Source: Bacillota bacterium
GTDB lineage: Bacteria > Bacillota > UBA4882 > UBA10575
NCBI GenBank assembly: GCA_012735135.1
Contig: JAAYHY010000075.1
Location: 1 to 37,041, forward strand
Direction of reading: 5' to 3'
DNA: 37,041 bases
Part shown: positions 35,159 through 37,041 of the stretch, piece by piece
Numbering within the stretch: position 1 is the first letter of the stretch
Layout: each line of letters begins with the position of its first letter
The notes under the pieces: generated by a model
The model's input: the letters and a program-made list of their open reading frames with translations, nothing else
What the model was told of the DNA's origin: nothing
Database searches by the model: none
Translations under genes and position numbers: made by a program

Positions 35159-35890
35159 ATGGCCGGACATTCCAAATGGTCAACGATTAAACGGAAAAAG
35201 GAGAAGACCGATGCCCAGAAGGCGAAGGCCTTTACCAAGATCACGCGGGAGATAATTGTGGCGACCAGAGCGGGCGGGGGTGACCCGGACGCTAATTTCC
35301 AATTGCGGTTGGCGGTCCAAAAGGCCAAAGCGATCAATATGCCCAACGAGAACATTAACCGGGCAATCAAGCGGGGCTTAGGTTCCAGTGAGGCCGAAGA
35401 TTATGAGGAGATTATCTATGAAGGATACGGCCCCGCCGGGGTGGCCTTTTTAGTCCAGACCCTATCGGATAACCGCAACCGGACCGCCAGCGAGATGCGG
35501 TATATTTTCTCCCGCAACAACGGCAGTCTAGGGGAGACCGGTTGTGTGGCCTGGTTGTTTGACCAAAAAGGAGTCATTACCCTTCTGAAGGAGAAAGTGG
35601 ATCTGGATGAAGAAAAATTATTCGAATTGGTGTTGGAAGCCGGAGCCGAAGACCTCCGGGCTGAAGAGGATTATTACGAGATCATCACCGGTCCTACCGA
35701 ATTGGAAGCCGTACGCAACCATTTAGAAGGAAAAGTGATCATTGAGGAGGCTGAGTTAGCCTTTCTGCCCAAGAATACGGTGACGGTAAGCGGCGCCGAT
35801 GCCGAAAATTTGGTCAAGTTGGTGGAAGCCCTGGAGGATCATGATGATGTCCAAAATGTCTATACCAATTTTGAGCTGGACGAGGAGTGA
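35159..35890 (+). CDS. yebC: YebC/PmpR family protein
   Basis: YebC proteins bind DNA or ribosomes; recent work ties some members to translation of proline stretches, others act as transcription regulators. The 243-residue product opens with AGHSKWSTIKRKKEKTDAQK, the family hallmark, and has GGGDPDANFQLRLAVQKAKA and NMPNENINRAIKRG. Length is typical. ATG 35159 follows GAGGTG; GTG 35150 is in frame but overlaps that site. It precedes the bofC-like gene, a known pairing in clostridia (often followed by ruvC). Confidence 0.96.
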   Translation: MAGHSKWSTIKRKKEKTDAQKAKAFTKITREIIVATRAGGGDPDANFQLRLAVQKAKAINMPNENINRAIKRGLGSSEAEDYEEIIYEGYGPAGVAFLVQTLSDNRNRTASEMRYIFSRNNGSLGETGCVAWLFDQKGVITLLKEKVDLDEEKLFELVLEAGAEDLRAEEDYYEIITGPTELEAVRNHLEGKVIIEEAELAFLPKNTVTVSGADAENLVKLVEALEDHDDVQNVYTNFELDEE

Positions 35891-35906
35891 ACGGGTATAA
35901 ACCGGA

Positions 35907-35935
35907 CCATTTTTGGGTAATTTATCCCAAAATGG
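35907..35935 (+). other. Stem-loop between yebC and the bofC-like gene
   Basis: CCATTTTTGGG (35907-35917) pairs with CCCAAAATGG (35926-35935) with one bulged T, around an 8-nt loop. No T-tract follows. It sits just before the ribosome site GGGAG of the next gene, so it may affect RNA stability or initiation there. Confidence 0.45.
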
Positions 35936-35953
35936 AAATGGGAGCGATCGCCG

Positions 35954-36454
35954 ATGAAAAAGGTGGGTCCCGTTCTATTCCTGGCTTTACTTTTCGGGGG
36001 GGCGGGCCTTCTGGCGCAGAACGGGAAACTTTCCCCCATCATCAGTCGTGTCCTAACGCGGGAAGAGGTAACCGTTGAACTCATCACATCATATACAGAA
36101 TGCCAACATGAAGAGGGGGTCACTGCGAAGTACCCCCAAAAAAAATGGGCTGACGTCTTGGAATAACACTCCCGGGACGGGTGGGTGATTGCCAGTTTTG
36201 CGGCGGAACGAGTTGAACTGCGGAAAAAGGTGGCGGATCTTTGCCGGGACTGTCGGGAGCAAGAGTTCATTGGGATTTACGGTCAAGAGATCGGAGTGTA
36301 CGCCGGGAGTCCGGACCAACCGGGCCCTTTGAAACAAGTCATTCCGGTAGATATAGGGCGGCTCCCCCCGGCTGAAATCGAAGATCTCCGGACGGGGATC
36401 ATCTGCAACCAACCGCAAGATAAATGGCGTATTTTAGAAGGATATCAAAATTAG
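35954..36454 (+). pseudogene. bofC: BofC-like gene interrupted by one in-frame TAA
   Basis: BofC-type proteins are exported into the forespore intermembrane space, where Bacillus BofC restrains the SpoIVB protease. The frame from ATG 35954 has an N-terminal signal-like segment (VGPVLFLALLFGGAGLLAQN), then VTVELITSYTECQHEEG. After the stop at 36164-36166 the same frame continues with DGWVIASFAAERVELRKKVA, CRDCREQEFIGIYGQEIGVY and a final EGYQN. Without the stop the protein would have about 165 residues, the family length. CAA to TAA is the simplest change. It could be a recent pseudogene, a sequencing error, or read-through. Confidence 0.75.
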
Positions 36455-36462
36455 TCCAGCCT

Positions 36463-36492
36463 AAAAAGCCTGGAGGATGGACTCCTCCAGGC
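36463..36492 (-). terminator. Strong minus-strand intrinsic terminator
   Basis: On the minus strand GCCTGGAGGA (36492-36483) pairs perfectly with TCCTCCAGGC (36477-36468) around GTCCA, followed directly by TTTTT (36467-36463). On the plus strand there is no T-tract after the stem. It therefore points to a transcript that comes from the right on the minus strand. It lies 8 nt past the bofC-like stop. Confidence 0.75.
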
Positions 36493-36857
36493 GACTTGGG
36501 TGATGGACCGACCTTCACGCCGGCTAACAAGGATCCCGACAAGGGCGGTAAACGGTTCACCCTTTCCTCAGCACCCCGGTTAACCTTTGTTCGAACCCAT
36601 TCCCTACCGGTTGAAGATCCCGTCTTACCATTTTACTTCCCCTCTAGGGCAAGAAAAGGGTTCTGCACTCGGCCGCAACGACTCCACCTTAGCGGGGATA
36701 AGATCAAATCGTTGGGACCTTCGCGCCGACCGGTTAAGGTAAGGATAAACATTAACCAATACCCCAACCGCTCTTTGCTCGACCTCCTTCCACCGGTGTC
36801 GGCCGCTTCCGACGGGGTAAAATTCAGTCTTCGTTCAGCCGGCCATCTACCATCTTT
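36463..36857 (-). ncRNA. Candidate structured non-coding RNA, class not recognised
   Basis: No credible protein is seen on either strand between 36455 and 37027. The minus-strand terminator at its end implies an RNA. Several helices can be drawn. CAACGA/TCGTTG (36709-36714 with 36676-36681) encloses ATCTTA/TAAGGT (36699-36704 with 36686-36691). GCCGAC/GTCGGC pairs 36798-36803 with 36725-36730. GAACCC/GGGTTC (36658-36663 with 36593-36598) encloses a TTTTCTT...AAGTAAAA hairpin. The 5' end is a guess, from a TAGAAT box at 36858-36863 without a good -35. I do not see RNase P, tmRNA, SRP or 6S hallmarks. Confidence 0.4.
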
Positions 36858-36863
36858 ATTCTA

Positions 36864-37027
36864 TCCGGTTTTGCATAAAATATCCCTGCGGAGGAAAATC
36901 GGCGGTGGCGAAGAAAAATAGGGGAAGGGATCGTATAAAAAAATTTACTTTGGGAGGAAATACTTAAAGATAGTAGAATAATCTTAACGTTATGTGATTT
37001 TTTTGCGCAATTCGAGGAGGGTTTGTT
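36864..37027. other. AT-rich intergenic region before the last gene
   Basis: This stretch probably holds the promoters for the minus-strand transcript and for the plus gene starting at 37028. On the plus strand TTGGGA, an 18-nt spacer and TAGAAT near 36951-36980 is a weak candidate. The ribosome site GAGGAGG lies at 37014-37020. No gene is visible. Confidence 0.35.
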
Positions 37028-37041
37028 TTGAAGAGTTATAC
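37028..37041 (+). CDS. Start of a gene cut by the window edge
   Basis: TTG at 37028 follows a strong GAGGAGG (37014-37020) with a 7-nt spacer and reads (M)KSY before the window ends. The context yebC-bofC would suggest ruvC next, but this opening is not that of RuvC. The product cannot be told. Confidence 0.5.

Follow-up and report, generated by a model that had tools for sequence, protein, structure and literature searches.

The stretch of DNA analysed here (the window; 37,041 nucleotides) carries at its 3' end yebC and a bofC-like gene, both on the plus strand, followed by ~580 nt without a protein. An earlier note had proposed that this tail harbors an unrecognised large and ornate structured RNA, transcribed from the minus strand and ending in a perfect 10-bp hairpin followed by TTTTT. 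The hairpin and its T-tract are indeed present on the minus strand at 36492-36468 and form the only terminator-like site in 35800-37041; taken alone, a site of this kind is not above chance (shuffle mean 1.9). None of 100 dinucleotide shuffles folds as well as the minus strand of 36455-36900 (z -4.78), whereas the folding signal on the plus strand is much weaker (z -2.36). The plus-strand ORF at 36424-36921 (165 aa) was rejected as a protein: every homolog contains in-frame stops, 1-9 in each, and a Pfam search of the ORF returned no match. The homolog stops and the Pfam result rule out a protein-coding origin on either strand, in agreement with the note's statement that no credible protein is encoded here.

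Further features of the region were recorded. An in-frame TAA at 36164-36166 breaks the reading frame of the bofC-like gene (35954-36454), whose C-terminal part matches BofC_C. Relatives such as L029 have the gene intact, and the interruption reflects either a genuine pseudogene or an error of assembly. A noncoding block at 36954-37010 (GGAGGAAATACTTAAAGATAGTAGAATAATCTTAACGTTATGTGAT), which lies upstream of the next gene on the plus strand, is nevertheless almost invariant across the genus. Positions 1-46 of L015 (G000:C125) are 100% identical to window 36915-36960, and contig C125 probably continues the contig of the window.

Homologs of the region were collected by a DNA search that took in the window's genome and 60 relatives. 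All eight genomes of the genus (the window's own counted) have the stretch, as do further family members, with DNA identities of 69-80%. Conservation in the minus-strand alignment consists of a promoter-like block followed by ~390 nt that extend up to the terminator hairpin. The homolog alignment contains 299 G-U cells vs 26 C-A cells among the wobble pairs, and because G-U exceeds C-A, the RNA strand is the minus strand, the orientation first proposed from the T-tract. In the RNAalifold consensus of the family alignment, covariation supplies about half of the energy. The 122 proposed pairs are 92.6% paired in alignment A6, compared to 31-50% after sliding the partners by 1-3 columns; both sides have changed in 54 pairs (24.4 in shuffled alignments), and the number of double-changed cells, 119 vs 39.6, was not reached in any of 500 shuffles. 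Alignment A4, built from 24 diverse lineages, gave 91% paired vs 25-45% slid and 189 double-changed cells vs 57.6 shuffled, with both sides changed in 26 of 32 pairs. The covariation that the earlier note had suggested looking for is thus very strong in both alignments. The features of the locus are as follows.

36463..36851, minus strand: whole RNA, ~389 nt including the terminator; supported by genus and family conservation, covarying structure and a covariance model match
36499..36851, minus strand: structured core of the RNA
36463..36492, minus strand: intrinsic terminator, 10-bp hairpin then TTTTT; hairpin kept across the genus
36881..36886, minus strand: putative -35 element GGGATA, from the de novo motif and the sigma-F/G consensus
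36857..36866, minus strand: putative -10 element GGATAGAATA, fitting GGNNANAATA and the sigma-F/sigma-G consensus
36851-36837/36513-36499 (span 36499..36851), minus strand: closing helix P1, 14 bp; 97.4% of cells paired, 5 pairs double-changed
36829-36826/36784-36781 and 36822-36809/36802-36788 (span 36781..36829), minus strand: spoke P2 (helices 3-5), class-wide in A4; 95-100% of cells paired, 9 pairs double-changed
36773-36753/36747-36728, minus strand: spoke P3; 12 of 18 pairs double-changed, class-wide 13 of 15
36719-36699/36691-36671, minus strand: spoke P4; 10 of 20 pairs double-changed
36668-36648/36608-36589, minus strand: spoke P5; 8 of 18 pairs double-changed
36585-36570/36537-36522, minus strand: spoke P6; 97.4% of cells paired, 3 of 14 pairs double-changed
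36830..36836, minus strand: linker L1, GAACGAA; near-invariant in the family, class consensus GRGCNAA
36774..36780, minus strand: linker L2, GAGCAAA; GC dinucleotide paired with that of L3
36720..36727, minus strand: linker L3, GGCGCGAA
36586..36592, minus strand: linker L5, GAACAAA; its AC pairs with the GT of L6
36514..36521, minus strand: linker L6, GGCGTGAA

Four individual helices had been listed in the earlier note. Two of them were recovered, 36676-36714 within P4 and 36593-36663 within P5, whereas 36725-36803 and 36631-36657 fall outside the covarying consensus.

Known RNA families were assessed using Rfam 15. No match was obtained anywhere in the window at the gathering cut-off, and a search of 35800-37041 at E<=10 gave only chance-level matches. 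The relatives tested likewise have no Rfam match at the RNA, and 20 diverse loci have none even at E<=1. The proposal of an unrecognised large ornate minus-strand RNA withstood the Rfam comparison and is supported by the covariation. RNase P RNA and tmRNA, neither of which the earlier note could recognise here, were excluded as identities since their genes lie elsewhere in the genome (G000:C22, 282 bits, and G000:C153, 195 bits, respectively). OLE RNA was excluded as well: its model RF01071 does not match the RNA, and L090 has a separate OLE gene. The latter lies at L090 2241-2866, ~1.1 kb from the new RNA of that genome (G339). OLE RNA resembles the new RNA in being large, ornate, stand-alone, found in Bacillota (many of them anaerobes or extremophiles) and of unresolved biochemical function, but it is ~600 nt long and has another fold. 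ROOL and GOLLD are also large ornate RNAs with repeated modules; their Rfam models do not match the new RNA, and an exact class pattern found no member of the new class in viral contigs. The raiA motif (ModT RNA) is similarly large, stand-alone and widespread in Bacillota (PMC11706538), but its Rfam model does not match the new RNA, from which it differs in layout and context. A literature search, which included comparative-genomics surveys and left preprints and most subscription papers outside its scope, found no description of the RNA. The RNA at this locus almost certainly belongs to a class of stand-alone structured RNAs that has not been described before and is absent from Rfam 15.

To map the class we combined a pattern scan with two covariance models. 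The scan, which covered one genome per GTDB species, returned 30 loci, and every one of these belongs to Bacillota or Clostridia MAGs; carriers include Hydrogenispora sp., Ca. Fermentithermobacillaceae (one complete genome, CP062796) and Syntrophomonadaceae. Model R1, derived from the window's family, matches 41 of 398 phylum genomes, some of which were missed by BLAST. Model R2, built from 24 diverse lineages with the window among its training sequences, matches 172 of the 398 (~43%) and 121 of 266 genera, with E down to 1.7e-24, and its match recurred in 60 of 60 loci retrieved afterwards. The window RNA itself matches R2 with E 1.9e-14 (G000:C35:36715-36843), a value to be read with its membership of the training set in mind. 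In L012 (G011:C74) the RNA occurs twice in tandem; both copies have a terminator hairpin of their own, and they differ chiefly in P2 and P3. G101 and G171 have two copies each, and one of the G171 copies adjoins an apparent CRISPR array (L096 from ~4150; repeat with GTTTCAATCCACACTCCCACATGGGGAGTGAC).

In most lineages the RNA is ~420 nt long and is organized as a wheel of six helices, in which the closing helix P1 and five spokes, P2-P6, are arranged around a hub of repeated 7-8 nt linkers. The spokes measure about 45, 48, 85, 75, and 88 nt across the class and are GNRA-capped, and the linkers follow the consensus GRGCNAA or GG[A/C]GCGAA. Dinucleotides of L2 and L3 pair across P3 in all 24 lineages compared, as GC/GC in 15 of them and as CC/GG in 9 (100% paired); those of the window are GC/GC. 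Within the window's family, L5 and L6 pair across P6 in the same manner, as AC/GT, GC/GC, GC/GT or GT/AC. Defined by P1 with five spokes, by linkers L1-L6 and by the L2/L3 pairing, the class includes the window RNA, which meets all of these criteria. Conserved wobble pairs recur in P2 and P3 ~11 bp from the hub. A second R2 match is located further 3' in 42 of the 60 loci, and many show the same for R1; in the loci inspected by eye it corresponds to linker4-P5-linker5-P6-linker6, which the unit linker1-P2-linker2-P3-linker3 resembles. From these second matches the RNA therefore looks like two two-spoke units separated by P4 and P1.

Because the hub modules are repeated and near-identical, we infer a scaffold role, in which the hub and wobble-pair modules would provide binding sites for multiple copies of a protein or of the RNA itself. 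Neither a bound protein nor a catalytic site has been identified, and a trans-acting scaffold that binds multiple protein or RNA copies remains a tentative proposal to which we give slightly less than an even chance. The pseudo-twofold internal repeat, the GNRA-capped spokes and the wobble motifs that recur regularly, roughly one turn away from the hub, could also point to a homo-oligomeric particle made of RNA only, like GOLLD, ROOL, and OLE; the new RNA has no sequence relation to any of these, and we regard such a particle as possible but unlikely. A new ribozyme with the conserved hub as its active site would account for the large size and for the highly conserved unpaired hub nucleotides, an argument also made for OLE RNA. 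However, the conserved nucleotides are one short linker repeated, an arrangement more in keeping with a structural or binding module than with a single active site, and catalysis at the hub seems improbable.

The region immediately 5' of the RNA start was analyzed in 73 non-redundant upstream regions by Gibbs sampling for a two-block motif, with no consensus supplied. The motif found was TGNATA followed, after 12-13 nt, by NNGGNNANAATA, or, in another notation, GNATA-N14/15-GGNNANAATA. It reached 13.9 bits (best of eight restarts, range 8.5-13.9) compared to 7.0-8.1 on shuffles, and a regular expression written to the same pattern was enriched 57-81x over loci at large. The B. subtilis sigma-F consensus has GTATA at -35 and GGNAANAMTR at -10, and that of sigma-G has GNATA and CAWAMTA (PMC3416734); for C. 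difficile, a G that precedes the -10 is a mark of sigma-F, and spoVT carries both marks (PMC3789822). The de novo motif fits the consensus of sigma-F/sigma-G regulon promoters. Several lineages match it imperfectly; the window is one example, its -35 reading GGATA, not GTATA. The same layout precedes the RNA-adjacent spoVT in L103-L107 and L109. Sigma-F and sigma-G promoters are indistinguishable here, and it is probable, judging from the promoter sequence and in the absence of expression data, that RNA polymerase with sigma-F and/or sigma-G transcribes the RNA inside the forespore. The noncoding RNA csfG and other forespore small RNAs are under forespore sigma control; csfG is smaller than the new RNA and has another structure, and the new RNA has no Rfam match.

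The distribution of the RNA was compared with that of sporulation genes, a strong sporulation sigma being defined as a best E <1e-75 to the spore sigma-F profile (our threshold). Such a sigma is present in 171 of 172 RNA-bearing genomes vs 169 of 226 RNA-lacking ones (Fisher p 1e-14), and Spo0A in 168 of 172 vs 177 of 226; neither comparison is corrected for ancestry. Among the 58 genomes without a strong sporulation sigma, 57 lack the RNA, and the one genome that departs from this (G303) has a completeness of 61%. Not every spore former has the RNA, which is absent from 169 genomes with sporulation sigmas. This last observation, the clustering of sporulation losses in a few families and a -10 (ANAATA) that partly resembles TATAAT would be compatible with a vegetative housekeeping RNA that is read from an ordinary sigma-A promoter and is linked to sporulation by shared ancestry only. 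In contrast, the discovered -35 is TGNATA rather than TTGACA, a GG lies upstream of the -10, and in family f15 the RNA is present in 3 of 3 genomes with sporulation sigmas and in 0 of 2 without. We consider the vegetative alternative doubtful and retain transcription in the forespore as the preferred reading.

The genomic position of the RNA is stable within a lineage and variable between lineages (the names of neighbour genes were read from sequence, and not all were profile-tested). In the window's family, bofC and an EF-G-like gene flank the RNA, which is read from the opposite strand. In family f66 it precedes spoVT, with RNase P RNA nearby; it is located between cation-ATPase-like genes in Fermentithermobacillaceae and near radA in f18, with rRNA among the neighbours in other lineages. 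No neighbour gene is common to the 60 loci, and the flanking gene runs opposite to the RNA in 39 of 56 downstream and 39 of 60 upstream cases. Because the neighbours vary, the RNA is stand-alone; it is not tied to bofC, and the context fits a trans-acting RNA. The arrangement in the window's family by itself would allow control of either neighbour, bofC or the EF-G-like gene, in cis or by antisense, but with spoVT, radA, cation ATPase genes or rRNA as neighbours elsewhere, a mixed strand relation, and conservation of structure rather than of complementarity to a neighbour, this is very unlikely. A mobile or phage-borne RNA, suggested by the tandem or otherwise duplicated RNAs of G011, G101 and G171, is scarcely credible, as the exact class pattern has no match in 2.9 million viral contigs and there is usually one locus per genome, in a context conserved within lineages.

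The best overall explanation is that the locus belongs to an undescribed class of stand-alone RNAs that is probably transcribed in the forespore and, more tentatively, acts in trans as a scaffold. We assign this reading as a whole a probability of roughly 0.78, without transcript data to support it and with a lower probability for the scaffold role. The RNA, once made, may serve as a stable scaffold in the developing spore. It is reasonably probable, though far from settled, that the class represents an unrecognised RNA of the endospore programme across much of the Bacillota: large, pseudo-symmetric, made in the forespore, and packed into the spore or needed to build it, acting either as a scaffold for proteins or as a particle of RNA alone. 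The class enlarges the small set of large ornate bacterial RNAs, and its simple repeated hub invites structural study. Sporulation is among the best-studied bacterial developmental programmes and has been described almost wholly via proteins; if the proposed reading is true, a ~420-nt structured RNA, present in ~43% of the sampled phylum genomes and nearly confined to carriers of sporulation sigmas, would be a missing component of that programme.
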